This document shows, in pieces, positions 1,565 to 59,144 of a stretch of DNA of 64,000 nt (position 1 is the first letter of the stretch; every line of letters begins with the position of its first letter). The notes beneath the pieces were generated by a model that saw only the letters and a program-made list of their open reading frames with translations, was not told where the DNA came from and did not search any database. This DNA comes from Blastococcus sp. CT_GayMR19 (lineage in GTDB: Bacteria > Actinomycetota > Actinomycetes > Mycobacteriales > Geodermatophilaceae): contig NZ_SPQL01000001.1 in the NCBI RefSeq assembly GCF_004570385.1, positions 124,001 through 188,000 of the forward strand, written 5' to 3'. Both the position numbers and the translations under genes were made by a program.

Positions 1565-2419
1565 ATGACCGCCATTCTCGTAGTGCTCGCGATCCTGGTC
1601 CTGGGCCTGCTGGTGCTCCTCGGTGCGAGCGTCCGCGTGGTCACCCAGTTCGAGCGGGGCGTGGTCCTCCGCTTCGGTCGGTTGCGCGGTGACCCGCGGG
1701 GTCCGGGCCTGAACCTGATCAACCCGGTGGCCGATCGGCTGCACAAGGTGAACATGCAGATCGTGACGATGCCGGTGCCCGCGCAGGAGGGCATCACCCG
1801 CGACAACGTCACCGTCAAGGTGGACGCGGTCGTCTACTTCAAGGTCTTCGACCCGGTCCGGGTGGTCGTCGACGTGCAGAACTACCAGGCCGCCATCGCC
1901 CAGGTCGCCCAGGCGTCGCTGCGCTCGATCATCGGCAAGAGCGACCTCGACGACCTGCTGTCCAACCGCGAGCGGCTCAACCAGGGCCTCGAGCTGATGA
2001 TGGACAGCCCGGCGGTGGACTGGGGAATCCACATCGATCGGGTCGACATCAAGGACGTCGCCCTGCCGGAGTCGATGAAGCGCTCGATGTCGCGCCAGGC
2101 CGAAGCCGAGCGCGAACGCCGGTCCCGGGTGATCACCGCCGAGGGCGAGCTGCAGGCGTCGGAAAAGCTGGCCCAGGCCGCCGAGGTGATGACCGCCCAC
2201 CCGGCGGCGCTGCAGCTCCGCCTGCTGCAGACCGTCGTCGAGGTGGCCGCCGAGAAGAACTCGACCCTCGTCCTCCCCTTCCCCGTCGAGCTGCTCCGGT
2301 TCCTGGAGCGGGCCACCCCGGCCGAGCAGGCCCCGTCCGCCGTGGCATCGCCGACCAACGGCGTCCCCGTCCAGCGCTCCACGCCCGCCCCGGCCGCACC
2401 CGCGGTGGGTTCGGGGTGA
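1565..2419 (+). CDS. SPFH-domain membrane protein, slipin/stomatin-like
   Basis: 284 residues: one N-terminal transmembrane segment (about residues 3-25), then a prohibitin/SPFH domain with the typical run VTQFERGVVLRFGR and GLNLINP, and a Glu/Arg-rich helical segment (residues about 180-215). The C-terminus is Pro/Ala-rich and probably disordered. Slipins form oligomeric membrane scaffolds; some are paired with an NfeD protein, which is not present here. The ATG at 1565 is chosen because it starts directly before the membrane segment; a longer reading frame back to 1436 has no such character. It lies between divergent and unrelated genes, so the partner is unknown. Confidence 0.85.
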   Translation: MTAILVVLAILVLGLLVLLGASVRVVTQFERGVVLRFGRLRGDPRGPGLNLINPVADRLHKVNMQIVTMPVPAQEGITRDNVTVKVDAVVYFKVFDPVRVVVDVQNYQAAIAQVAQASLRSIIGKSDLDDLLSNRERLNQGLELMMDSPAVDWGIHIDRVDIKDVALPESMKRSMSRQAEAERERRSRVITAEGELQASEKLAQAAEVMTAHPAALQLRLLQTVVEVAAEKNSTLVLPFPVELLRFLERATPAEQAPSAVASPTNGVPVQRSTPAPAAPAVGSG

Positions 2420-2471
2420 TCGTGTAGACAGCCGTCCCGTCTGGCAGGCCGCACCGGCCAGCGGCGAGACT

Positions 2472-4313
2472 GTGCCCGTGAACGATCAGCAGCGGGTGCA
2501 GCTGCGGGTGGCCCTCGCCCAGGTCGACACCCGGGTGGGCGACCTCTCCGGGAACGTCGAGCTGGTGCACCGGTGGACGGCGCAGGCGGCCGAGGCCGGC
2601 GCACACCTCGTCGTCTTCCCCGAGATGACCCTGACCGGCTACCCGCCCGAGGATCTCGTGCTGCGGGAGTCCTTCGCCCGGGCCAGCGAGCACGCGCTCG
2701 TCGACCTGGCCGCCGCCCTGGCCGACGAGGGGCTCGGGGACGTCGCCGTCGTCGTCGGGTACCTGGCCCACACCGAGGGCAGCGGCCCGGCCCCGGTCGA
2801 CCACCCGCCGGTCGACGACGCCGACCGGCCCGGTGACGCCAACCCCCGCCGCGGCGCCCCGCGCAACGCCGCCGCCCTGCTGCACGGCGGGCGGGTCGTC
2901 GTCCGCTACTACAAGCGGCACCTGCCCAACTACGGCGTCTTCGACGAGGCCCGCTACTTCGTGCCGGGCGCCGAGCTGCCGATCGTCCGGCTGCACGGGG
3001 TCGACGTCGCGCTGACCATCTGCGAGGACCTGTGGGTCGAGGGCGGCCCGTGCGGGGTCGCCGGCCAGGCCGGCGTGGACCTCGTCGTCTCCCCCAACGC
3101 CTCCCCCTACGAGCGGGCCAAGGACGACCTGCGCTTCCCGCTGGTGCGCCGCCGGGCCGCCGAGGCGCACGCGCCGGTCGTCTACTGCAACCAGGTCGGT
3201 GGCCAGGACGAGCTCGTCTTCGACGGCGACTCGCTCGTGGTCTCCGCGGACGGCGAGCTGCTCGCCCGCGCCCCGCAGTTCGTCGAGCACCTGCTGACCG
3301 TGGACCTGTCGCTGGACCGGGGCGCGGTGACCGAGCGGCGCGACGGCCGGATCGGGCCGATGACTGTCACCCGGCACGTGCTGTCGCAAGCGCCGGTGCC
3401 CGGGTTCGAGGCGCGGCCGGGGACGGTCGCCAAGCCGCTCGAGGACTGCGAGGAGGTCTGGCGGGCGCTCGTTCTCGGCCTGCGCGACTTCATCGACAAG
3501 AACGGCATGCCGTCGGTGGTGCTGGGCCTCTCCGGCGGCATCGACTCGGCGGTGGTCGCCACCCTCGCCGTCGACGCGCTGGGCGCGGATCGCGTGCACG
3601 GCGTCGGGCTGCCGTCCAAGTGGTCCAGCGAGCACTCGCTGGCCGACGCCGAGGACCTCGCGAAGCGCACCGGCCTGCACTACGACGTCGTGCCGATCGC
3701 GCCGATGGTCGACGCGTACCACGGGTCGGTCGAGCTCTCCGGCGTCGCGGCGGAGAACCTGCAGGCCCGGGTGCGCGGGACCCTGCTCATGGGGCTGTCC
3801 AACCAGCACGGGCACCTGCTGCTGACGACGGGCAACAAGAGCGAGGTCGCGGTCGGTTACTCGACCCTCTACGGCGACTCCGCCGGCGGGTTCGCGCCGA
3901 TCAAGGACGTGCCCAAGACGCTGGTCTGGGATCTCGCCCGCTGGCGCAACTCCTACGCCCGCGACCGGGGAGAGACCGAGCCCATCCCGCAGAACTCGAT
4001 CGACAAGCCGCCCTCGGCCGAGCTCGCCCCCGGCCAGCAGGACTCGGACTCGCTGCCCTCCTACGAGGAGCTCGACGCGGTGGTGCGCGACTACGTCGAC
4101 CGCGACCTCGGGATGGCCGAGCTGCTGGAGCAGGGCCACGACCCGGAGGTGGTGGCGCGGGTCCTCCGGCTGGTGGACACGGCCGAGTTCAAGCGCCGCC
4201 AGTCGGCGCCCGGTACCAAGATCAGCCTGAAGGCGTTCGGCCGCGACCGGCGCCTGCCGATCACCAACCGCTGGCGGGAGAGCCTCCCCAGCGTCCGCGA
4301 AGGAGCATCGTGA
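2472..4313 (+). CDS. nadE: glutamine-dependent NAD+ synthetase
   Basis: 613 residues. It converts deamido-NAD+ to NAD+ using ATP and ammonia taken from glutamine. The N-terminal half is a nitrilase-fold glutaminase with the Glu-Lys-Cys triad visible as [11 protein letters not shown] (E51), [10 protein letters not shown] (K148) and [11 protein letters not shown] (C184). The C-terminal half is the synthetase with the PP-loop [20 protein letters not shown] near residue 353 and [16 protein letters not shown]. The start is GTG at 2472; a second GTG two codons on would give nearly the same protein. panB follows 34 bases downstream, so the two cofactor genes may be cotranscribed. Confidence 0.95.
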
Positions 4314-4347
4314 ACGAGCTCGCGAGTTCAGCAGAGGACACCACCAC

Positions 4348-5190
4348 ATGACCAACCCCCCGGCCGAGTCGGTCGTCTACGGCGGGCAGTCCTCCGCCCG
4401 CGTGCGCGTCCACCACCTGCAGCAGGCCAAGGAGCGGGGCGAGAAGTGGGCGATGCTCACCGCCTACGACACCTACAGCGCCGCGATCTTCGAGGAGGCC
4501 GGCATCCCGGTGCTGCTGGTCGGCGACTCGTCGGGCAACGTCGTCCTCGGCTACAGCAGCACGGTGCCGGTGACGGTCGAGGACCTCCTGGTGATGACCA
4601 AGGCGGTCACCCGGTCGACCAAGCGGTCGCTGATCGTCGCCGACCTGCCGTTCGGCAGCTACGAGTCGGGCCCCCAGCAGGCGTTCGAGACCGCCGTCCG
4701 GTTCATGAAGGAGGGCGGCGCGCACGCGGTCAAGCTCGAGGGCGGGGTGCGGGTCGCGTCGCAGATCAAGCTCCTGCACGACGCCGGCATCCCGGTGATG
4801 GCGCACGTCGGCTTCACGCCGCAGAGCGAGCACGCCCTCGGCGGCTACCGCGTGCAGGGCCGCGGCGCGGGCGCCGAGCAGCTGCTCGCCGACGCGCACG
4901 CCGTGCAGGACGCCGGCGCGTTCGCCGTCGTCCTGGAGATGGTACCGGCCGAGATCGCCGGGCAGGTGACCAAGGAGCTGACCATCCCGACGATCGGCAT
5001 CGGCGCCGGCGCCGACTGCGACGCCCAGGTGCTGGTCTGGCCGGACATGGCCGGGCTCAACGGAGGGCGCGTGCCGAAGTTCGTGAAGAAGTACGCCGAC
5101 CTGCGGTCGGAGCTGTTGCGGGCCGCCCGCGAGTACGCCGACGACGTCCGTGGCGGCACCTTCCCGGGCCCGGAGCATTCGTTCGAGTAG
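4348..5190 (+). CDS. panB: 3-methyl-2-oxobutanoate hydroxymethyltransferase (ketopantoate synthesis)
   Basis: 280 residues. It adds a hydroxymethyl group from 5,10-methylene-THF to alpha-ketoisovalerate, the first committed step to pantothenate and coenzyme A. The TIM-barrel family signatures are present: [32 protein letters not shown] (metal-binding Asp), [27 protein letters not shown] and [20 protein letters not shown]. Length is normal for the family. The gene follows nadE by 34 bases on the same strand. A 17-bp perfect inverted repeat begins 11 bases after its stop codon and may end its transcript. panC and panD are not in the window. Confidence 0.95.
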
Positions 5191-5200
5191 CGGTTCTCCG

Positions 5201-5254
5201 CGGCATTGCGGGTGTTGTGCCGACAGTGCCGGTGCTGCAACACCCGCAATGCCG
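5201..5254. repeat. 17-bp perfect inverted repeat after panB
   Basis: The arm CGGCATTGCGGGTGTTG at 5201-5217 is exactly complemented by 5238-5254 with a 20-base spacer. It starts 11 bases after the panB stop codon and 87 bases before the next start, both genes being on the plus strand. It could be a rho-independent-like terminator without a U tract, as is common in high-GC actinobacteria, or a dispersed palindromic repeat. Confidence 0.7.
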
Positions 5255-5340
5255 GAGCGACACGCGCAATCCAGGACGCCTTGTTCCCGACCGAGGCCGC
5301 GGGCCCTGCCCTCACCGGTCCGGCGGTGGGACCGTGGCGC

Positions 5341-5817
5341 ATGGGCATCGAGGAGAACAAGGACGTCGTCCGCGGGCTCGTCACGGAGTGCATCAACCCG
5401 TACCGCCCCGACCTCCTGGAGCGCTTCGTCGGGGACGACGTCCGTGCCCATCCCGGCACACCGGGCACGGCCCCGGACACCGACGGGATCGGTCAGCTCC
5501 AGGACGCGGTGCACCGGATCCGCGGCACGTTCCCGGATCTGCACATCGAGTTCGAGCAGGTGATCGGCGAGGGTGATCTCGTCGCCGCCCGCTGGACGGC
5601 GACGGGCACCCACTCCGGCCCCCTGGCGGGCGTGCCGGCGACGGGCAGGGCCGTGCGGTGGAGCGGCACCGACGTGTACCGCCTCGTCGAGGGCCGGATC
5701 GTCGAGTGGTGGCGCAACGACGACGCCGTCTGGCTGCTCCACCAGGTCGGTCGCGACCTCGCAGACGACGCGACCGGCGCGCGGCGCCGGACCCTGGCAG
5801 GCGAACCTCGTCCCTAG
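5341..5817 (+). CDS. SnoaL-like ester cyclase-family protein
   Basis: 158 residues with the alpha+beta cone fold pattern of the SnoaL/NTF2-like family: ENKDVVRGLVTECINP at the N-terminus, an internal FPDLHIEFEQVIGEGDLVAARWTATGTH segment and a C-terminal GRIVEWWRNDD segment. Bacterial members of this group are of mostly unknown activity; some cyclise polyketide esters or isomerise steroids. The ATG at 5341 begins exactly at the conserved N-terminal helix. An upstream TTG-led extension would run through the inverted repeat and is not credible. Substrate cannot be told from the context. Confidence 0.75.
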   Translation: MGIEENKDVVRGLVTECINPYRPDLLERFVGDDVRAHPGTPGTAPDTDGIGQLQDAVHRIRGTFPDLHIEFEQVIGEGDLVAARWTATGTHSGPLAGVPATGRAVRWSGTDVYRLVEGRIVEWWRNDDAVWLLHQVGRDLADDATGARRRTLAGEPRP

Positions 5818-5827
5818 GTCCCGGACC

Positions 5828-6091
5828 GTGCGGTTCCGACCGGCATCCGGAAGGCCGGACGGCGAGCCGGTGGCGGCTCCCCTTGCGGGTGACCGGACCG
5901 AGCATGCCCGGCTGATCGCCGCGCGGGGTGCGGGCCTGGCCGTGCCGCTCCGCGAGATGACCGCGGCGTCGCTGGAGCGACTGGTCGGCGACGCGGCTCC
6001 GGCGTCGGCCGCACGCGAGGTCGCCGCCGAGATCGCCGCCATGCCCGACCCGGCGGAACTCGTCGAGCCGCTCGTCGCGCTGACCCGCTGA
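5828..6091 (+). pseudogene. C-terminal remnant of an MGT-type glycosyltransferase
   Basis: An 87-codon open frame whose translation matches only the end of macrolide/UDP-glucosyltransferase family proteins: VAAPLAGDRTEHARLIAARG followed by GLAVPL and a closing helical stretch AAREVAAEIAAMPDPAELVE. In intact members this segment is the nucleotide-sugar site and last helix of a protein of about 390-420 residues. About 300 residues upstream are missing, since the SnoaL-like gene ends at 5817. No start codon context stands out. I read it as the relic of a deleted glycosyltransferase, though expression of a short protein cannot be excluded. Confidence 0.6.
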
Positions 6092-6101
6092 GCCGCAGGA
6101 C

Positions 6102-6512
6102 CTAGATCGCGACTGCCGGCCGGGCGCGGCGCCGCCGGGCCCGAACGGCGAGGACTGCGAAGGCGACCACGTTCGGCACGAGCGCCACCGTGTAGATGCC
6201 CGCCTGGACCGACGGCCCGGCCACGTCGAGGCCGATCGGCGCGAACACGTAGTGCCCGAGGTAGCCCCCGTCGTAGACCACGCCGCCGGCCTCCGAGCGC
6301 AGCCACAGCTCCAGCTCCGTCAACGGGCACGGCTCCCCCGCCCGGTTGACGGCCAGGATCGCGAGGCTGACCGGCAGGTGCACCCAGAGCACCCGCGGCC
6401 GCCACAGCGCGATCACCGCGCCGGTCAGCATCAGGACGACGGCGGCCCCGTGCACGACCGCCACCGTGTCGGCGAGCAGCACAGGAGAAGTCTGGCACCA
6501 CGGACGGCGCAT
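6102..6512 (-). CDS. DUF2784 family small membrane protein
   Basis: 136 residues with about three to four hydrophobic segments (LLADTVAVVHGAAVVLMLTG, VLWVHLPVSLAILAVNRA, and two near the C-terminus) and the family motif EPCPLTELELWLR, followed by YDGGYLGHYVFAPIG. DUF2784 proteins are widespread bacterial inner-membrane proteins of unknown function. The ATG at 6512 starts eleven bases after the stop of the F420 enzyme gene, so both are likely on one transcript. The basic C-terminus (RARRRRARPAVAI) would face the cytoplasm by the positive-inside rule. Confidence 0.75.
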   Translation of the reverse strand: MRRPWCQTSPVLLADTVAVVHGAAVVLMLTGAVIALWRPRVLWVHLPVSLAILAVNRAGEPCPLTELELWLRSEAGGVVYDGGYLGHYVFAPIGLDVAGPSVQAGIYTVALVPNVVAFAVLAVRARRRRARPAVAI

Positions 6513-6523
6513 CGGCCGCCGGA

Positions 6524-6925
6524 TCACGCGCCGGAGATGTGCAGGGCCAGCCGCGCGGTCCGGGGCCGGCCGCGCAGCCGCTCGACGAGGCGCTCCATGC
6601 CGAGCACCACCCGCGACTCGACGGGATACGCGCGCCGGATGGTCGCCCGGGCACGCACCACGTCGGCGGGCGCCTCCCGCACCTCGGCCGTCCCCGGTAG
6701 GGGCTCGACGCCGTCCTCGACCGCGCCGAACCGGCCGCACGGCCGGAGCTCGACCCGCGGGTCGGAGCGCAGCCGCTTGACCTTGCCGCTGCCGACCGGC
6801 GTGAGGACGACGAGCCCGTCGCCGTGGCGGCCGACCCACACGGGCGTCGAGACCGGAGCCCCGGAGCGGCGGAACGTGGTGAGCGAGACGAAGCGTCGGT
6901 CGGCCAGGGCCAGGAGCGGGGTCAC
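6524..6925 (-). CDS. PPOX-class F420-dependent oxidoreductase
   Basis: 133 residues of the split beta-barrel flavin/deazaflavin family. The N-terminus FVSLTTFRRSGAPVSTPVWV and the central GKVKRLRSDPRVELRPC are typical of the F420-binding branch in actinobacteria. Such enzymes reduce unknown substrates with reduced F420; small members can also bind biliverdin. The start GTG at 6925 is chosen because it precedes the first beta strand. An NADPH:F420 reductase gene lies about 1 kb upstream on the same strand, which fits an F420-using cell. The stop is 11 bases before the DUF2784 start. Confidence 0.8.
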   Translation of the reverse strand: MTPLLALADRRFVSLTTFRRSGAPVSTPVWVGRHGDGLVVLTPVGSGKVKRLRSDPRVELRPCGRFGAVEDGVEPLPGTAEVREAPADVVRARATIRRAYPVESRVVLGMERLVERLRGRPRTARLALHISGA

Positions 6926-6951
6926 TGGCCCACTGTAGGAGCGGCGCCGGA

Positions 6952-7698
6952 TCAGCCGCTGAGCTGCGCGGTCAGCAGGCGGGGCGCCTCGATCAGCGAC
7001 GGGCCGTACCAGGTGAGGTGCCGGCCGCTGACGAACGCCGGGCGGGCCTGGGGCCATGCCTCCGGGCCGTCGTCGGGGGTGAACGCGTAGGGCTCGTCGG
7101 GGAACACCACCAGCTCCGCATCGACCGAGGCCGGATCGTCCTTGGCCAGCTTCGGATAGCGGTCGGGCGAACCGGCGAAGACGTTCTCGACGCCGAGGCG
7201 GGCCAGGACGTCGCCCGCGAAGGTGTCCCGTCCCAGCACCATCCACGGCCGCCGCCAGATCGGGACGACGGCCCGCACTCCGGGCAGCCGCGGCGGATCG
7301 GCCCAGGCCGCGCGGGCCTCCCGGAGCCAGTGCGGTCCCGGACGGCCGAGCACCGCGCAGAGCCGGTCGAGGGAGTCCAGGGCCTGGTCGACCGTCGCCG
7401 GGGCGGTCACCCAGACCGGGATGCCGTCGGCCCGCAGCGCGGCGACGTCCTCGTCCCGGTTCTCCTCGGCGTTGGCGACGACCAGGTCGGGCCGCAGCGC
7501 CCGCACGCGGTCGAGGTCGGGCCACTTGGTGCCCCCGACGCGGGCGACGTCCAGTCCGGCGGGATGGGTGCACCAGTCGGTGGCGCCGATGAGCAGGGCG
7601 GGGTCCGTGGCGGCGATCGCCTCGGTCAACGACGGAACCAGTGAGACGACCCGGCCCGGCGACGGCCCGTCGTAGGGATGGCCGCGGTCGTCACGCAC
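6952..7698 (-). CDS. helical-backbone metal receptor / BtuF-like protein without signal peptide
   Basis: 248 residues from GTG at 7698. The fold signatures of periplasmic-binding proteins for cobalamin, siderophores or heme are clear: GRVVSLVPSLTEAIAATDPA, LLIGATDWCTHP, ALRPDLVVANAEEN and ARLGVENVFAGSPDRYPKL. There is no signal peptide or lipobox, so it may act in the cytoplasm or as a stand-alone sensor; no permease is nearby. The same frame stays open to 7941, but that extension consists only of repeat-encoded ESDQGA and SDDSPGSIAA units and would overlap the upstream gene, so I prefer the start at VRDDRGHP. Confidence 0.75.
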   Translation of the reverse strand: MRDDRGHPYDGPSPGRVVSLVPSLTEAIAATDPALLIGATDWCTHPAGLDVARVGGTKWPDLDRVRALRPDLVVANAEENRDEDVAALRADGIPVWVTAPATVDQALDSLDRLCAVLGRPGPHWLREARAAWADPPRLPGVRAVVPIWRRPWMVLGRDTFAGDVLARLGVENVFAGSPDRYPKLAKDDPASVDAELVVFPDEPYAFTPDDGPEAWPQARPAFVSGRHLTWYGPSLIEAPRLLTAQLSG

Positions 7699-7712
7699 CT
7701 CGGACGGTGCCC

Positions 7713-7928
7713 CCTGGTCCGACTCCGCACCCTGGTCCGACTCCGCACCCTGGTCCGACTCCGCACCCTGGTCCGACTCCGCGCCCCGGTCCGCTCCTGT
7801 CTCGCCGGCGCTCGCTGCGATGCTCCCGGGGCTGTCGTCAGACGTCGCACCCTGGTCCGACTCCGCGCCCCGGTCCGCGCCTCGCTCGTTCCTCGCTGCG
7901 ATGCTCCCGGGGCTGTCGTCAGACGTCG
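7713..7928. repeat. array of 18-bp tandem repeats and a 37-bp direct repeat
   Basis: Four consecutive copies of the 18-mer CCTGGTCCGACTCCGCAC occupy 7713-7784 (the fourth ends GCGC) and a fifth is at 7851-7868. A 37-bp block at 7811-7847 recurs exactly at 7892-7928, giving an 81-bp imperfect tandem duplication. The second block includes the last codons and stop of the F420 reductase gene, so the array seems to have grown from that gene end. All units are multiples of three and keep the frame of the downstream receptor-like gene open. Confidence 0.85.
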
Positions 7929-8614
7929 GTGACGCGGACACCGGCGTGCACCTTGTACCGGCGGTTGACCGACACGAGGTTGATCGTGAGCGCCTCGATC
8001 TGCCGCGCGTTGCGCAGCCGGCCGGCGTAGACGCCGCGCATCCCCGGTAGCCGGCCGGCCAGTGCCTGCACCGCGTCCGTGGCCTCCCGGACGTCGCCGA
8101 CCACCATCACGTCGCCGTCGATGGTGGGGCGCGAGAGGTCCTGGAGCAGCACCGCGGACAGGTGGTGGAACGCGCCGACGACGTGGCTGTCGGGCAGCAG
8201 CGCCGCCGCCTGCTGGGTGACGCTGCCCTCCTCGACGTCCAGGACGTAGGCGCCGAGCTCGTCGAAGCCCATGGGGACGACGCAGTCGACGACGATCTTC
8301 CCGGCCAGCGGGGCGGCCAGCTCGGCCAGCGTGGCGGCGTGCCCGGCGTAGGGGACGGCGACGATCACGAGGTCAGCGGCCCCAGCGACGTCGACGTTCG
8401 ATCCGCCCTGCACCGACACCTCGGCACCGCCGGCAGCCGGGACCGCGAGGGCGGCCACCTCGGCAGCGACCTCGGAGGCGCGGTCGGCGTCGCGGGAGCC
8501 CAGCAGGATGCGCTGCCCGGCTGCGGCCAGCCGTACGGCCAGCCCGCGTCCCTGGGGGCCGGTGCCGCCGAGCACCCCGACGACCAGATCCTCCACCGCG
8601 CGCCCGTCCGTCAT
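7919..8614 (-). CDS. npdG: NADPH-dependent F420 reductase
   Basis: 231 residues. It transfers hydride between NADPH and coenzyme F420, keeping the reduced F420 pool. The N-terminal Rossmann motif VVGVLGGTGPQGRGLAVRLA, the phosphate-binding GSRDADRA and the motif LVIVAVPYAGHA are diagnostic, as is VVDCVVPMGFD and the later VVGAFHHLSA. The ATG at 8614 is preferred over an ATG four codons earlier because family members begin just before the Rossmann strand. The 3' end lies inside the repeat array described at 7713-7928. Confidence 0.9.
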   Translation of the reverse strand: MTDGRAVEDLVVGVLGGTGPQGRGLAVRLAAAGQRILLGSRDADRASEVAAEVAALAVPAAGGAEVSVQGGSNVDVAGAADLVIVAVPYAGHAATLAELAAPLAGKIVVDCVVPMGFDELGAYVLDVEEGSVTQQAAALLPDSHVVGAFHHLSAVLLQDLSRPTIDGDVMVVGDVREATDAVQALAGRLPGMRGVYAGRLRNARQIEALTINLVSVNRRYKVHAGVRVTDV

Positions 8615-8649
8615 GCCCGCGATCATGCCCCGCCCCCGCGTCGGGTCCG

Positions 8650-8832
8650 TCAGTCACCCTCCCAGGCCCGGTCCTCGGCGGTGAGCTTCTGCTCGCGCTC
8701 GGCCACCGAGTCGACGGCGCGCTCGGCCTGCGCACGGGTCTCGTACGGACCGAGCCGGTGGCGCTCCGCGCAGCCGTCCCGGGGTTCGACGGTGTGGTGC
8801 TTGAGACAGAAGAACCACGGTCCCTCGGTCAT
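8650..8832 (-). CDS. small conserved actinobacterial protein
   Basis: 60 residues: MTEGPWFFCLKHHTVEP, DGC, then RLGPYETRAQAERAVDSVAE and an acidic end. The pattern (FCLKHH ... LGPY.T...A..AL) recalls a small SPOR-like protein conserved in actinobacteria; its function is unknown to me. The two Cys/His clusters could bind a metal. A strong ribosome site GAGGAGG precedes the ATG at 8832. It stands alone between npdG and a possible zinc-ribbon ORF. Confidence 0.7.
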   Translation of the reverse strand: MTEGPWFFCLKHHTVEPRDGCAERHRLGPYETRAQAERAVDSVAEREQKLTAEDRAWEGD

Positions 8833-8915
8833 CGACAGCCTCCTCGTTCGGTCAGTGCCCTCCGGATGGTGCGTCAGCATGCACCGTGCCGCCCGGCCGA
8901 ACGGGCCGTGTGAGG

Positions 8916-9089
8916 TCAGCGCCTGCCCCGTCGTCCCCGATCGGCAGCCGAGCGGGCGCACTCGCGGCAGATGAACGTGCCAGGTGTCGAGGCCAGCTCG
9001 GTGACCCGTCCACCGGTGAACACCCCGCCGCAGCAGCCGCAGCGGTGCAGCCCCGGAAGGGCCGCGAAAGGAGCGGGCAGCGCGAACAC
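8916..9089 (-). CDS. possible small zinc-ribbon protein
   Basis: 57 codons from GTG at 9089. The translation contains two CxxC pairs, HRCGCCGGVF and FICRECARSA, 26 residues apart, with a basic tail ADRGRRGRR. This spacing is that of a single zinc ribbon. The frame continues open upstream without a better start, and no Shine-Dalgarno sequence is obvious, so the call rests on the cysteine pattern alone. It lies on the same strand as its neighbours. Confidence 0.4.
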   Translation of the reverse strand: MFALPAPFAALPGLHRCGCCGGVFTGGRVTELASTPGTFICRECARSAADRGRRGRR

Positions 9090-9136
9090 GGGTCGATGGT
9101 GTCGCGGACGCGGCAGGCTGCCAAGGCTCGCCGGGC

Positions 9137-9610
9137 TCAGCCGTCGACCATCACCTGGTCGTGACGGGCGTAGAAGGCGGTCATCTCCTCGGGGCTGAGC
9201 GTCCGGCCGCTCCGGCGCAGCTCGGCCACCTCGGTGAAGAAGTTCTCCCGCGCGATGCCGGGCGCGAAGAGGATGAGGAAGGAGGTCCACTCGTCGCCGT
9301 CGTTGCGGAAGCCGTGCGCTCCGCCCTCGTGCACCAGCGCGTAGTCGCCGGGTCCGAACGGCAGCCACTGCCCCGCGTGGAAGACCGTCAGTTGGCCGGT
9401 CAGCACGAAGAAGGACTCCGAGAACGTCGTGTGGAAGTGCGGCCCGGCACCCGGACTGTTCGGCGCCACGTGGTACTCGAGCAGGCCGTACCGGCCGGCC
9501 GTCGCCGCACCGGGAGCGACCATGCGCAGCTTGCTGGTCGGGCCGTTGGAGATCAGCGGGTGGTCCGCCAGCGTGCGGACGTCGACCAGCGCGGGGTCCA
9601 GGTGCGACAT
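9137..9610 (-). CDS. cupin-domain protein
   Basis: 157 residues of the single-domain cupin fold. Cupin motif 1 is seen as GAGPHFHTTFSESFFVLTG (two His and one Glu as metal ligands) and motif 2 as FGPGDYALVHEGGAHGFRND with the last His. Such proteins bind Fe, Mn or Zn and may be dioxygenases, isomerases or sensors; the substrate is not evident. The ATG at 9610 starts MSHLDPALVD. It is divergent from the diguanylate cyclase gene across a 106-base gap. Confidence 0.8.
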   Translation of the reverse strand: MSHLDPALVDVRTLADHPLISNGPTSKLRMVAPGAATAGRYGLLEYHVAPNSPGAGPHFHTTFSESFFVLTGQLTVFHAGQWLPFGPGDYALVHEGGAHGFRNDGDEWTSFLILFAPGIARENFFTEVAELRRSGRTLSPEEMTAFYARHDQVMVDG

Positions 9611-9716
9611 GGGCCCACCCTGGCAGCTCATCCGGCCTGCTGGGACGCGGATGTGCACGGCTCCTGCCACCAGAACGCCTGCGTGCCAAAACCACAGAAA
9701 GTGCCGGTCGTGCGGC

Positions 9717-10898
9717 ATGATTCTGGCGATGATCGGCCGATGGGATCTCGACGGGAACGGCGGAGCCGGCGTGCAGCACCCTTCCAAGGCCGATGCGCAG
9801 CCGGCCGGCCGTGGGCCGGAGCACCGGGTGGCCGCGCTCACCCTCGCGGCGCTGCTGTTCGTCGGCAGCCTGATGGGCATGTCGAACCTGCTCGTCGACG
9901 GCGTCCTGCGGGAGGGCGCACCGCGCTGGATCTACGGGACGGCGATGCTCCTGTGCATGGTCGCGGCGGTGCCGCTGGCCGTGCGCAAGCGGGCCGGCCG
10001 GTGGCAGACGTTCGGGCTGGTCCTCCTCGGTGACCTGACCTACCTGGTCGTCGTCCTCTGCATCGAGGACCCGGTCCGCTACGCGACCCCGCTCATGCTG
10101 CTGTTCCCGGCGTTCGTGGCCGCCTGGTTCCTGGGTCCGTGGGAGCTCGGCATCAACATGGCGGTGACGACGGTCGTCTGTCTGCTGGCGCTGTGGCCCA
10201 GTTACGACAGCGCCGCCGCACTCGGCATCCAGGTGGTCGTCAACGCGGGAACGCTCAACGGCGGCGCGCTCGGGGTGTTCGTGCTCCGCCGGCGCGTGCA
10301 GCGACTGCTCGACGCGACCCAGGCGCTCTCCCACCTCGACCCGCTGACCGGGCTGTTCAACCGCCGCTACCTCATCGAGCAGGCACCCCGCATCTGGCGG
10401 CAGGCCCGCCGCGACGGCACCCGCGTGGCCGCCATGGTGCTCGACATCGACCACTTCAAGCGCCTCAACGACGCGCACGGGCACGCCGCCGGGGACGCCG
10501 TCCTCTGCGCGGTCGCCCAGGCGCTGGCCGCGACGGTCCGCCCGACCGACGTCCTCGCGCGGACCGGCGGCGAGGAGCTCGTGGTGCTCGGTCTGGTGGG
10601 GGACCCCGACGAGGCACGGCGGCTGGCCGAGCGCCTGCGCCTCGCCGTGTCGGACACGCGGACCCTGGACGGCCACGCGGTGACCGCCTCGATCGGGGTG
10701 GCGCTCACCCGCCCGGTCGGCAACGAGCACGCGCCCGATGCCCTGTGGCGGCTGGTCGACCGGGCGGACGCGGCGATGTACGAGGCCAAGCAGCAGGGCC
10801 GTGACCGGGTCGCGGCGCTGAGCCTCCCCCGGGCGCGGTCGCCCATTTCCCTCGAGCGCGAGGTGTGGCCCGGCACGACGGCCGGCGACACCCTCTGA
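9717..10898 (+). CDS. membrane-anchored GGDEF diguanylate cyclase
   Basis: 393 residues. An N-terminal membrane part (about residues 35-190) has five to six hydrophobic segments and probably senses a signal; the C-terminal GGDEF domain (about 205-365) starts at LSHLDPLTGLFNRRYL. The active-site loop reads RTGGEELVVL, a GG(D/E)EF variant with Leu as last residue. The product-inhibition site RPTD lies exactly five residues before it. It would make cyclic di-GMP from two GTP. The ATG at 9717 is chosen; an in-frame ATG at 9729 is equally possible. It stands alone, transcribed away from the cupin gene. Confidence 0.85.
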   Translation: MILAMIGRWDLDGNGGAGVQHPSKADAQPAGRGPEHRVAALTLAALLFVGSLMGMSNLLVDGVLREGAPRWIYGTAMLLCMVAAVPLAVRKRAGRWQTFGLVLLGDLTYLVVVLCIEDPVRYATPLMLLFPAFVAAWFLGPWELGINMAVTTVVCLLALWPSYDSAAALGIQVVVNAGTLNGGALGVFVLRRRVQRLLDATQALSHLDPLTGLFNRRYLIEQAPRIWRQARRDGTRVAAMVLDIDHFKRLNDAHGHAAGDAVLCAVAQALAATVRPTDVLARTGGEELVVLGLVGDPDEARRLAERLRLAVSDTRTLDGHAVTASIGVALTRPVGNEHAPDALWRLVDRADAAMYEAKQQGRDRVAALSLPRARSPISLEREVWPGTTAGDTL

Positions 10899-55479: not shown

Positions 55480-56373
55480 CTAGGCCTGCGGGGGCACCGG
55501 CGCCTCGACCACGGCCCGCCGCCGCGCGAGGCGGAGCGGCACCAGGACAGCTGCGGTCACCAGCAGGGCGACCGCCACCCACGGCAGGAGGACGCCGAGG
55601 ACGACGACGACCGCGCCCAGCGCAGTGACCAGCGCCCGCCATCCGGTGCCGAGCCCGTCGGAGAAGCCGTCCGGCCCGCCGGCCGGCGCCACACCGAACG
55701 GCTCCAGGTGCACGCGGAGCGTCGACAGCTCCACCTGGTCGGCCAGCAGCGCCCGCTGGGACTGCAACGACTCCAGCTTCTCCTGCCGCTCGGAGAGGGC
55801 CTTCTCGGCCGCCAGCAGGGCCTCGGTGCTGGCCGCGGTGTCCATCAGGGCCTGCAGCCGCGCCACCGAGCTCTGCAGCGCCGAGATCCGCGCGTCCAGG
55901 TCGACGGCCGTCGCGGTCACGTCGGAGCCGGACACCGACACGCTCTCGACGTCGCCGAGGTCCTCCAGGTCCGCCAGGACGCCGGTCAGCTCGTCCGCCG
56001 GCACACGGACCACGAGGTCGGCGACGGCGCCCTCGACCCCGCCCTCCCCCGACGCCGCCTGCTCGGTGCGCTCGTCCACCCGGCCGCCGGCGGACTCCAC
56101 CAGCTCGCTCACCCGCTGGGCACTCGCGGCCGGGTCCTCGACGGCGAGGGAGGCGGCGGCGGTCGTGACCACCTGCCGGTCGGGGTCGGTGTCGACCGCG
56201 CCGGCGGGCACGCCCTCGGGACCCGCTGGGGCGGCCGGCCCGGGGACGGACTCACTCCCGCCGGCACCACCCTCCGCGCCACCCGAGTCCGTGCTGGACG
56301 TGCCCGAGCCGGAGCAGCCGACGAGCAGCGTCACGGCGAGGGCCGCGACTGCCGTGCCCAGGGAGCGCCTCAC
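55480..56373 (-). CDS. DUF4349 lipoprotein with coiled coil and C-terminal membrane segment
   Basis: 297 residues from GTG at 56373. A lipobox LLVGC follows a hydrophobic signal (LGTAVAALAVTLLVGC), then a low-complexity linker. The DUF4349 core reads RQVVTTAAASLAVEDPAASA and VRVPADELTGVLADLEDLGD. A coiled coil (about 190-235: ISALQSSVARLQALMDTAAS) and a membrane helix (about 255-285) end the protein. Function is unknown; these proteins sit on the outer face of the membrane. A 22-bp direct repeat pair upstream might be its operator. Confidence 0.8.
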   Translation of the reverse strand: MRRSLGTAVAALAVTLLVGCSGSGTSSTDSGGAEGGAGGSESVPGPAAPAGPEGVPAGAVDTDPDRQVVTTAAASLAVEDPAASAQRVSELVESAGGRVDERTEQAASGEGGVEGAVADLVVRVPADELTGVLADLEDLGDVESVSVSGSDVTATAVDLDARISALQSSVARLQALMDTAASTEALLAAEKALSERQEKLESLQSQRALLADQVELSTLRVHLEPFGVAPAGGPDGFSDGLGTGWRALVTALGAVVVVLGVLLPWVAVALLVTAAVLVPLRLARRRAVVEAPVPPQA

Positions 56374-56410
56374 GGTCGGGACGGTAGGACGGTGATCCGG
56401 CTGCCGACCA

Positions 56411-56451
56411 GCGCCGATGCTCAATCGTGCCGGCGCCGATGCCCAATCGTG
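56411..56451. repeat. 22-bp spaced direct repeat upstream of the DUF4349 gene
   Basis: GCGCCGATGCTCAATCGTG at 56411-56429 recurs at 56433-56451 with one T/C change, a period of 22 bases, or about two helical turns. It begins 38 bases upstream of the DUF4349 start codon, a position suited to a regulator-binding pair. Confidence 0.55.
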
Positions 56452-56496
56452 ACGCGGGACGGCGCGGCGCGGACCGGGCGACGCGGATGCCGGCGG

Positions 56497-56560
56497 CGGA
56501 CGAGTCGGCCGGTTCGCCGGGGGGTGTCCACGGGCGCCCTGCCGCCTCCCGAGGGGCGGG
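56497..56560 (-). repeat. displaced copy of the rnpB 3' end (att-like)
   Basis: This 64-base stretch aligns without gaps to 58009-58072, the 3'-terminal part of the RNase P RNA gene, with about 55 identities; runs of 14 bases (CGGACGAGTCGGCC and TGTCCACGGGCGCC) match exactly. Orientation is the same and the offset is 1512 bases. It lies 19 bases beyond the end of the HPr-kinase-like gene. This is the pattern left when an element integrates at the 3' end of an RNA gene. Confidence 0.75.
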
Positions 56561-56579
56561 AACGCTGACGGCCGGTTCC

Positions 56580-57755
56580 CTACAGGAGACCCGCGATCAG
56601 TTCCGCTGCCCGCTCGTTCGTGCGGTGGTTCTGGTGCACCTCGTAGGCCGCCACCCCGGGTAGGCGGTCGCGCAGCGGCGCGGCCAGTCGCTGCTCGAGC
56701 ACGCCGTCGCTGAGGTCGAAGAAGTGCTGCAGGAAGCCCTCCCCCTTGCTCAGGAGGCTCACGTAGGACTCCCTCAGCAGCCCGGTCACCTCCTCGCGAT
56801 CCGCGGGCCGGAGTAGGGAGTCCTCGAGGCACAGATCGAAGACGGGAATCAGGAGCAGGTCCAGTGGAGCCGTGGGGGTGATCGATCTCTGGAACAACCC
56901 GGCCAGTTCTGCCGGGGTCATGTGCAGCTTCTCGTCGCGGGTCGTGAGCTGTTCCGGCGTATTGGTCGCCGCGATCTGCTGCACCTCGTCGAGGCCGATG
57001 TTCGGGAAGAACGGAGCCTCCGCTTCCGCGAGCCACGCCAGCACCTGCGGTTGCACGATCGCCGTGCCCACGCGGATGCCGATCTTGCCGGGGATCCCGC
57101 AGACCTCCAGGTGTGCACCCGTGTCGCGGATCAGGAACTTGTCGACCGCGAGGAGGTCGCACCCGTTCCGCGCGAGCAGGTTCAGCAGGGTGCTCGTCTT
57201 GCCGGAACCCTTGGGTCCGGCGACACAGATGGTCCGACCGTTCTTCGCCGCGCACGCGGAGTGCATGGGAATCCAGCCCTGCTCGAGCAGCAGCCACTTG
57301 CTCAACGCGCGCAGGGTCTGCATGCCCTCCTCCCGCCGAACCTCGAGGTTGCCGGACGTCACCAGGACGATCGTCCGGTCTTCGCTGAACAGGAGGAGGA
57401 ACACGTCCTCTCGCGGTCGGCTCTTCCCGGCCACCTTCCGGACGAGTGCCACCGAGCCCATGAACGGGATCTCCGCGTAGTCGTGCTTCCCGACCGCGGG
57501 CTGCTCGGGCACCAGCTCCTGCAGCGCGGCGAAGAGGGCGCGATCAGCCGTGCTGTAGACGGCGGCATCGACGGCTCGTGGACTGCTGAGTAAGAAATAT
57601 CCCTCGAAGAACCGACAGATCCATTCGACGCTGGCGCTCTCGTCGCTGCCGTAGGCGAAGGAGACGCCCGCGTACTGCAGGCACTGCTGGTCGCCGCGGG
57701 CCTGGATGTCCCGTGCGACCTGCGCCGCCCTCGACGCGATCTCCTCCGGTGTCAT
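56580..57755 (-). CDS. HPr-kinase-related P-loop protein
   Basis: 391 residues. The C-terminal half has the Walker A motif ICVAGPKGSGKTSTLLNLLA (near 180) followed by GCDLLAVDKFLIRDTG, the layout of HprK-like kinases, and then VCGIPGKIGIRVGTAIVQP. The N-terminal 150 residues, with SVALVRKVAGKSRPREDVFL, are not recognised. Comparable HprK-related proteins occur beside peptide-modifying gene clusters, but no precursor, PqqD-like or PTS gene is present. Codon use and GC are lower than around it (34 G+C of 60 at 57541-57600), and the gene lies between rnpB and a copy of its 3' end, so it is probably acquired. Confidence 0.7.
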   Translation of the reverse strand: MTPEEIASRAAQVARDIQARGDQQCLQYAGVSFAYGSDESASVEWICRFFEGYFLLSSPRAVDAAVYSTADRALFAALQELVPEQPAVGKHDYAEIPFMGSVALVRKVAGKSRPREDVFLLLFSEDRTIVLVTSGNLEVRREEGMQTLRALSKWLLLEQGWIPMHSACAAKNGRTICVAGPKGSGKTSTLLNLLARNGCDLLAVDKFLIRDTGAHLEVCGIPGKIGIRVGTAIVQPQVLAWLAEAEAPFFPNIGLDEVQQIAATNTPEQLTTRDEKLHMTPAELAGLFQRSITPTAPLDLLLIPVFDLCLEDSLLRPADREEVTGLLRESYVSLLSKGEGFLQHFFDLSDGVLEQRLAAPLRDRLPGVAAYEVHQNHRTNERAAELIAGLL

Positions 57756-58007
57756 CCCGCACTCCTGTCCGTCGGCGAGCGCCTGTCCGGTTCGTCTTCG
57801 AACCGTGATCCGACGGGGAGATGGGACTGCGGGTTCGCGGCGCGTACTCAGCGTGACAGTCGGACCCGTCCCTGACCAGCGGTTCCGGCCGCCCCGTCAC
57901 GGTCGAGGCAGCGACCGGCGGCCGGCTGCCCGCTCTCGGGCCGACGAGGCCGACCGCGTCCCGGGAGTACGCCGGTGCCGACCGGCGCCTCCGGTCAGGG
58001 GTGGACG

Positions 58008-58427
58008 ACGGACGAGTCGGCCTGTACGCCGGGTTCTGTCCACGGGCGCCTCGCGGCCTCCCGATGGGCGGTCATCCATCTAGGCCTGCCGTTGCCGGCA
58101 GGCTCGAGCGGTCTACCCGCAGGCATCGGGCGGGCCGCCCTCGAACGCCTGCGCAGGACGGCGGCGAACCGCCGTCCCTCTTGACCTTGCTCCGGGTGGG
58201 GTTTACCGAGCCACACCGGTCACCCGGTGTGCGGTGGTCTCTTACACCGCCGTTTCACCCTTACCAGCGCCCTGCCCGAAGACAGGACCCTGGCGGTCTG
58301 TTCTCTGTGGCACTGTCCCGCGGGTCACCCCGGGTCGCTGTTAACGACCACCCTGCCCTGTGGAGCCCGGACGTTCCTCGGCGACGGGTCTCCCCGCCGA
58401 CGCGACCGCCCAGCCGACTCGTCCGTC
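58008..58427 (-). ncRNA. rnpB: RNase P RNA, bacterial type A
   Basis: About 420 nt. The 5' end and 3' end form the P1 helix: bases 58005-58021 are the exact complement of 58413-58429. On the minus strand the conserved 5' core GAGGAACGTCCGGGCTCC (58378-58361), the central AGGGTGAAACGGCGGTG and the 3' core GGACAGAACCCGGCGTACA are all present in order. It makes the catalytic subunit that trims tRNA 5' ends. The exact mature ends are estimated from P1. Downstream of its 3' end lies the kinase segment and then the displaced 3'-end copy. Confidence 0.95.
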
Positions 58428-58451: not shown

Positions 58452-59144
58452 TCAGATCGCCATCGCCGCACGCACCGCCCCGCTGGACGCCGGTCCGCCG
58501 TCCCCGCTCGCGCTGACCCGCCCCGACTCCATGACGTAGTAGGTGCTGGCGGCGGTCAGCGCGAAGCCGACGTGCTGCTCGACCAGCAGCACCGACAGCC
58601 CACCGCGACGTGTCAGCGACAGGATGGCCTCCTGGATCTCGGTCACCACGCTCGGCTGGATGCCCTCCGTCGGCTCGTCCAGGATCAGCATCCGTGGCGC
58701 GGTGAGCAGCGCCCGCGCGATCGCCAGCTGCTGCCGTTGCCCTCCCGACAGCAGCCCGGCCCGCCGCCCCAAGAGCGGGCGCAGCGCGGGGAACAGGTCG
58801 AGCGCCTCGTCGGTGCGCGCCTCGCCGTCCTTCCGCCCGTCCGCCACCAGCTGGAGGTTCTCCGAGGCGGTGAGCTGCGGAAAGGCCTGCTGGCCCTGCG
58901 GTACGTACGCCAGCCCACGCCGAACCCGCTCGTACGGGCGCAGCGCCGTGACGTCCTCCCCGTCCAGCAGCACCCGCCCGAACCGCGGTCGGAGCAGGCC
59001 GACGGCCGCCCGCAGCAGGGTCGTCTTCCCGGCGCCGTTGTGTCCCAGCACGACCGCGACGCCGTCCGCCGGCACGCGGACGTCGACCCCGTGCACGACC
59101 TCCGTCCGCCCGTAGGCGATGCGGACGCCGGACAGTTCCAGCAT
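58452..59144 (-). CDS. urtE: urea ABC transporter ATP-binding protein UrtE
   Basis: 230 residues of the branched-chain/urea-type ABC ATPases (LivF-like). Walker A is VVLGHNGAGKTTLLRAAVGL, signature LLSGGQRQQLAIARALL, Walker B MLILDEPTEGIQPSVVTEI. The phrase GIQPSVV is typical of UrtE. It hydrolyses ATP to drive import through UrtBC. Its ATG overlaps the urtD stop (TGATG). It is the last gene of the operon, ending 24 bases before the rnpB 5' end, on the same strand. Confidence 0.9.
   Translation of the reverse strand: MLELSGVRIAYGRTEVVHGVDVRVPADGVAVVLGHNGAGKTTLLRAAVGLLRPRFGRVLLDGEDVTALRPYERVRRGLAYVPQGQQAFPQLTASENLQLVADGRKDGEARTDEALDLFPALRPLLGRRAGLLSGGQRQQLAIARALLTAPRMLILDEPTEGIQPSVVTEIQEAILSLTRRGGLSVLLVEQHVGFALTAASTYYVMESGRVSASGDGGPASSGAVRAAMAI

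Follow-up and report, generated by a model that had tools for sequence, protein, structure and literature searches.

In Blastococcus sp. CT_GayMR19, rnpB, the gene of an essential ribozyme, is followed by a second copy of its own 3′ end, and the question this locus raises is how that copy came to lie there. The original prediction had proposed site-specific integration at the rnpB 3′ end, leaving a gapless, same-orientation copy of the tail on the far side of a single gene of lower GC, with no integrase remaining. We analyzed the locus within a 64,000-nt stretch of DNA, referred to here as the window (Table 1). The repeat is present as described: segments 56494–56559 and 58006–58071 match without gaps as a direct repeat, with 56 of 66 bases identical (85%) and a spacing of 1512 nt, and the locus has both an intact rnpB and a direct downstream copy of its tail.

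Table 1 Features of the rnpB locus, in window positions
Feature	Position	Strand	Evidence
DUF4349 gene, right-hand flank	55480..56373	-	PF14257 E 5e-60; start GTG read from sequence
Two 22-nt tandem copies, conserved element upstream of DUF4349	56408..56451	+	Repeat search, comparison to relatives
Putative right attachment core inside the displaced copy	56497..56521	-	2 mismatches
Displaced, decayed copy of the rnpB 3′ end	56497..56559	-	63 nt, 86% identical; 66 nt at 85% with 3 extra bases
Putative cargo gene, P-loop, weakly HprK-related kinase-like protein, 391 aa, low GC	56580..57755	-	ORF and family searches
Island-type left arm CTGACC...GGTCGG (inverted repeat)	57978..57998	-	Starts 11 nt past rnpB 3′ end
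Putative left attachment core (final 25 nt of rnpB, then TCG), same sequence as the island core of relatives	58006..58033	-	0 mismatches to 25-nt core in G000
rnpB, RNase P RNA (class A), intact, putative attachment target	58009..58421	-	Rfam RF00010 full length, 283 bits
urtE-like ABC transporter ATPase gene, left flank upstream of rnpB	58452..59144	-	ORF; name by eye

The match between the two tails is specific to rnpB. Scanned without gaps along the window on either strand, the rnpB tail scores 56/66 at the displaced copy and at most 38/66 at any other position, and when the displaced copy is compared with its own genome (G000, 4.57 Mb, 42 contigs), the sole strong non-self match is rnpB (E 7e-15), the next being at 0.003. 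These values leave hardly any likelihood that the tail match is due to chance or to a common repeat unrelated to rnpB, a possibility the original prediction had raised. The mismatches are spread evenly over the block and include the conserved ACAGAA, which reads ACACCC in the displaced copy, and this even divergence means that the copy could hardly be used in a working RNase P RNA. A search of the copy for a structured RNA signal found none (z 0.7).

Between the two copies, the ORF list contains one likely gene, as had been expected, and its low GC was also confirmed: the stretch it occupies has 67.1% GC vs 72.6% for the window, and 0.5% of same-size stretches are equally low. The description of its product as HPr-kinase-like holds in part. 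The P-loop region of the protein matches the NCBIfam family HprK_rel_B (HprK-related kinase B, TIGR04355) with E 3e-9, but the score is 36 bits against a curated cut-off of 200, so that by score the protein is not a member, and no Pfam family scores over its cut-off. The structure search returned no related solved structure (best E 0.9), and a defence role was rejected as no PADLOC family matched. The gene is accessory, being found in 4 of 112 family genomes, the window's included, and adjoining the rnpB core only in the window genome. The other three carriers, at 34–36% identity, are G002 and G095, where the gene lies on contigs other than that of rnpB, and G125, in which a search with the 25-nt core did not find the rnpB core at all; no conserved partner genes around these three relatives are obvious by eye.

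The original prediction had suggested looking for larger islands with integrases at rnpB in relatives, and these exist. A first survey located rnpB in 58 of 61 genomes, with more than one copy in G007 only, and yielded 40 regions, of which G007 contributed two and L042 was too short for the test. In G003, G006, G013 and G016 the rnpB tail recurs 8–14 kb downstream in perfect or near-perfect form, and in G006 and G016 a 364-aa tyrosine integrase is encoded antisense to rnpB, ending about 30 nt from the rnpB 3′ end. After the integrase, the G006 island encodes a small HTH protein and a helicase-domain TrwC relaxase, and part of its cargo is defence-like (OloB-like, TIR/ThsB-like, caspase-like and Schlafen AlbA); in G016 the defence-like genes resemble AbiEii and PDC-S39, and the single protein scanned from G087 gave no PADLOC match. 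When the 25-nt core was searched with up to 2 mismatches in 112 family genomes, it was present in 102, and in 18 genomes, including the window's, the rnpB contig carries a second core in the same orientation at a distance of 1.5 to 75.6 kb. The reversed core pattern occurs in none of the 112 genomes, and G133 has an additional core pair on a contig without rnpB. The GC of island intervals is lower than that of their flanks in 11 of 11 measured, in one by half a percent only.

The integrase of G006, used as a query, finds 39 places in 33 of the 112 family genomes at E 1e-80. Comparing the coordinates of these places with those of the cores by eye rather than by script, 16 of the 18 places with at least 64% identity end no more than 1 kb from an rnpB core, and for 12 the distance is about 100 nt or less; G013, whose integrase lies 6.9 kb inside its island, and G012:C28 are the exceptions. 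At 56% identity or below there are 21 places, and no rnpB core adjoins any of these. The window's genome has no integrase of this clade at E 1e-80, in line with the original prediction, and a weak tblastn match in the window interval (E 6e-4) was rejected as an integrase remnant, being at chance level (another window piece gives 4e-4). Intervals without an integrase also occur elsewhere, in G003 (8.4 kb) and G070 (1.9 kb, with none on the rnpB contig).

In L041 (G003:C79, oriented 2402-10799), genes that look by eye like a thiamine cluster (thiD, tenA, permease, thiO, thiG, thiE) separate rnpB from its displaced tail, a perfect copy of 26 nt, and there is no integrase. The 1.9-kb interval of L098 (G070:C26), which resembles that of the window, contains an ArsR-type regulator and an AHSA1 gene with no integrase-like ORF, and its rnpB tail copy has one core mismatch. 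In L042 (G004:C30) and L043 (G005:C44) the contig breaks off within the rnpB tail or shortly after it, as a repeated tail, or an element that varies within the sample, would lead one to expect. The G007 assembly holds two different rnpB genes (L045, G007:C253; L046, G007:C15), and the left arm of one of them is of the island type.

Beyond the family, an alignment of 13 rnpB-adjacent integrases used as the query retrieved 161 relatives from genome_contigs, of which the best 80 were analyzed. In 69 of these best 80 loci rnpB is matched by blastn; three of the 69 were put to Rfam, which confirmed L146 and L189 and not L190, a short end at the locus edge. In 56 of the best 80 loci no more than 400 nt separate the integrase from the rnpB 3′ end, which was extrapolated from a partial match in five of these 56. 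By the names on their records, the hosts among the best 80 are mostly actinomycetes, including Geodermatophilus, Modestobacter, Blastococcus, Mycobacterium, Nocardioides, Microbacterium, Janibacter, Terrabacter, Pseudonocardia and acidimicrobial MAGs, and a few MAGs carry the names of other phyla. A downstream copy of the host's own rnpB tail, with 26–30 of 30 bases identical, was found in 22 of the 62 testable loci among the best 80 (L190 among them), at 2.3 to 13.4 kb and with a typical length of 25–32 nt; the remaining testable loci reach at most 20/30 bases and a reversed control at most 22/30. As about 10 kb was covered on the downstream side, some tail copies are expected to have been missed. 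The displaced copies track the tail sequence of their own host, for example in Microbacterium and Nocardioides. Among the best 80, rnpB was absent by blastn from 11 loci, and none of the 11 has an Rfam match. As drawn, an integrase tree of 59 rows (65 of the 80 given, 6 broken ones dropped) has eight loci without rnpB in five places: L163, L164–L166, L132/L133, L152 and L150; the label count that accompanies the tree sets these loci against just two rows and is uninformative on their scatter. Searches of phage and plasmid records at E 1e-40 returned only integrase relatives below 37% identity, in 3 phage and 3 plasmid records. Tyrosine integrases of one clade are found at the rnpB 3′ end both within Geodermatophilaceae and in other genomes, most of them actinomycete; integration at rnpB is real and widespread, and the islands extend far beyond the genus.

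Two groups of loci in this set depart from the usual arrangement. In the mycobacterial loci L185–L188, related integrases are oppositely oriented, in the same direction as rnpB and 260–300 nt beyond it, with tail copies 10.9 and 6.5 kb away in L185 and L188, respectively. The Blastococcus loci L132 and L133, whose integrases are 66–67% identical, have no rnpB in the locus and carry CAAGTTCTGCCACGG on both flanks, so that perhaps their integration target has changed.

A comparison of the junctions shows where the window agrees with these islands and where it does not. The right copies of relatives usually start with CCCGGC or TCCGGC, or up to 7 bases earlier, and end at the rnpB 3′ end or a few bases past it; the TCG that closes the core reads CCG in the window's displaced copy. 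Judging from the core sequence, the inverted repeat CGGC-GTACAG-GCCG is a possible crossover site with a 6-nt spacer. Many islands have CTGACC at +11 or +12 just beyond rnpB, and the left arm of the window, with CTGACC at +11, has a weight-matrix score of 11.7, which is within the island range (9 of 19 island loci score below it) and has a P of 3e-5 on random sequence matched in composition. High matrix scores are not confined to islands with an integrase, as L045 and L068 outscore the window without an integrase in the stretch examined. Over 97 family rnpB loci, with the window excluded and five non-rnpB core sites dropped, TGACC at +12/+13 is present in 18 of the 23 loci with independent island evidence vs 11 of the 74 without (Fisher p 3e-8), giving a likelihood ratio of about 5 for the motif as a sign of an island. 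Some of these 11 look like unrecognised islands, and one of them, G032, has an integrase fragment 1.65 kb away at a contig end. On the right, an arm GTCA at −54 before the displaced core is exact in 10 of 21 copies of relatives and is missing from the window's displaced copy, which has GTCA at −48 instead.

Strains without the kinase-like gene had been predicted to show rnpB followed directly by the upstream region of DUF4349, but such an exact empty site was not found among the relatives examined. DUF4349 is present in 10 of 16 genus genomes and lies near rnpB in the opposite orientation in G003, G008, G011 and G012; the sole same-direction DUF4349 near rnpB, on G007:C15, is truncated and sits behind a response-regulator-like gene (read from sequence). 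The upstream region of DUF4349 is common to relatives only up to 56432–56464, which places the displaced copy just outside a conserved, promoter-like element, CGATTGGGCATCG. An element similar to CGTCACGATTGGGCATCG upstream of DUF4349 is kept in several Blastococcus-group genomes (L085, L086, L089, L090) although their DNA diverges beyond it, and in the window it is doubled. On the other side of the locus, the urtE-like gene has close relatives in 3 of 16 genus genomes, the window's included, and in G003 and G011 it lies on a contig other than that of rnpB. When the right-hand flanks of 20 relatives were compared, one clear pair of occupied and empty sites emerged, and it belongs to the window's genus: the flank after the displaced copy of G003, 8.4 kb from rnpB, matches the DNA directly behind rnpB of G011 (85.7% over 680 nt). 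A shorter and weaker match of this kind relates G016 to G034 (73% over about 165 nt).

The feature that fits least well is the length of the displaced copy, which is not limited to the short core but forms a 63-nt block. A 70-nt rnpB tail query gives 26 partial matches in the 112 family genomes at E 1e-5, and the window's is the longest: 21 of the copies start at base 45 or 46 of the query (25–26 nt), four at 29–40, and the window's at 8. It reaches 38 nt leftward past the core, the next longest (G070) reaching 17 nt, and none of the 22 displaced copies of the wider integrase-locus set is comparable in length. This long right copy leaves room for an origin that involves no integrase, in which the 63-nt tail would be the remnant of an older or second rnpB copy. 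Such a remnant could have arisen through homology-assisted illegitimate recombination that inserted rnpB 3′ sequence together with the kinase-like gene, or as a tail duplicate split by the gene, and both its length and its even divergence suit an arbitrary break, in a genus where the surroundings of rnpB and DUF4349 vary much. This origin is the main rival of the island reading given below, and the less likely of the two. It does not predict the island arm at +11, and the precedent of two rnpB genes in one assembly comes from G007, a fragmented assembly whose two copies could be from mixed strains. Tandem duplication should repeat the downstream flank and was rejected, since the sequences after the two tail copies do not match; relocation of the whole rnpB is a needless assumption, as a −10-like TAGGCT sits at the same place as in relatives.

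The length could also point to an integrase of another type, whose crossover would lie at a more upstream point of the gene, close to the 3′ strand of helix P2, and would duplicate a 63-nt tail. The window sequence has an imperfect inverted repeat, GGCCTAGATGG-ATGACCGC-CCATCGGGAGGCC, that could serve as its site, and by reading, the block starts inside the 8-nt spacer of this repeat; however, the repeat may merely reflect RNA structure, and no other member of the 112-genome set has so long a partial copy at E 1e-5, which makes this explanation quite improbable.

We read the interval 56497–58008, with moderate confidence, as most likely a decayed rnpB island that lacks an integrase, and the locus as a probable but worn and atypical case of rnpB integration. 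The site-specific integration put forward in the original prediction is supported by the geometry, orientation and significance of the tail copies, by a cargo that is accessory and low in GC, as in the intervals of relatives, by the arm at the left junction, and by the relatives themselves, which include islands with integrases and displaced copies as well as integrase-less intervals. It is weakened by the over-long copy, the CCG in place of TCG, the missing right arm, integrase remnant and exact empty site, and a left-arm motif that is not exclusive to islands. By this decayed-island account, an integrative element would have entered the rnpB 3′ end by means of a tyrosine integrase of the rnpB-specific clade, which would recombine the short core of the element with the same sequence in rnpB (the last 25 nt plus TCG, containing the CGGC-GTACAG-GCCG repeat). 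Since the element would supply its own copy of the tail, rnpB would stay whole and the old tail would be displaced to the far end. The integrase and most of the cargo would have been lost later, leaving the kinase-like gene behind, and the 63-nt right copy may reflect a longer attachment region in the element that entered here.

The proposed arrangement can be compared with known systems. In islands at tRNA and tmRNA 3′ ends (Islander/TIGER type), a tyrosine integrase lies beside the RNA gene, the element restores the tail, and the displaced tail is found at the far end, with a short core; the rnpB islands are alike in all these features and differ in the target. Integrative and conjugative elements of actinomycetes (AICEs) carry their own replication initiator and an FtsK/TraB-type translocase. 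The rnpB elements share with them the actinomycete hosts, a tyrosine integrase and an RNA gene as target, while the G006 element differs in its TrwC-type relaxase. This element is closer to the category of MOBF integrative mobilizable elements, which it resembles in its integrase, small HTH protein and TrwC relaxase with a helicase domain, and from which it differs in its rnpB target; the 4.8–5.4 kb elements of G096, G087 and G104 have no ORF of TrwC-relaxase size. In the portions covered of the published surveys, TIGER/Islander sites are divided into 33.8% tRNA/tmRNA, 43.4% protein-coding and 22.8% intergenic (PMC12424338), and AICE sites are mostly tRNA genes (PMC3218068). Neither 'rnpB' nor 'RNase P' occurs in the main text of the TIGER/Islander paper (PMC12424338). 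Our literature search turned up no account of integration at rnpB, and none appears in the portions covered of PMC4524478, PMC8776855, PMC5462765, PMC3218068, PMC2516327, PMC4256840, PMC3541175, PMC2705793, PMC12424338, PMC9580842, PMC12884075, PMC6582537 and PMC2245857.

It is quite possible that a dedicated clade of tyrosine integrases docks at the rnpB 3′ end across Actinomycetota, comprising integrase-bearing elements and integrase-less cassettes, the latter perhaps moved in trans. If true, a widespread rnpB-specific clade would mean that a further RNA gene joins tRNA and tmRNA genes as a classic type of target, could account for some islands annotated as intergenic, and could give actinomycete genetics a landing site that is conserved. 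The elements of G006 and G016, two of those examined, bear genes resembling anti-phage defence, and the window would represent a possible end state of such elements, a cassette whose machinery is gone.
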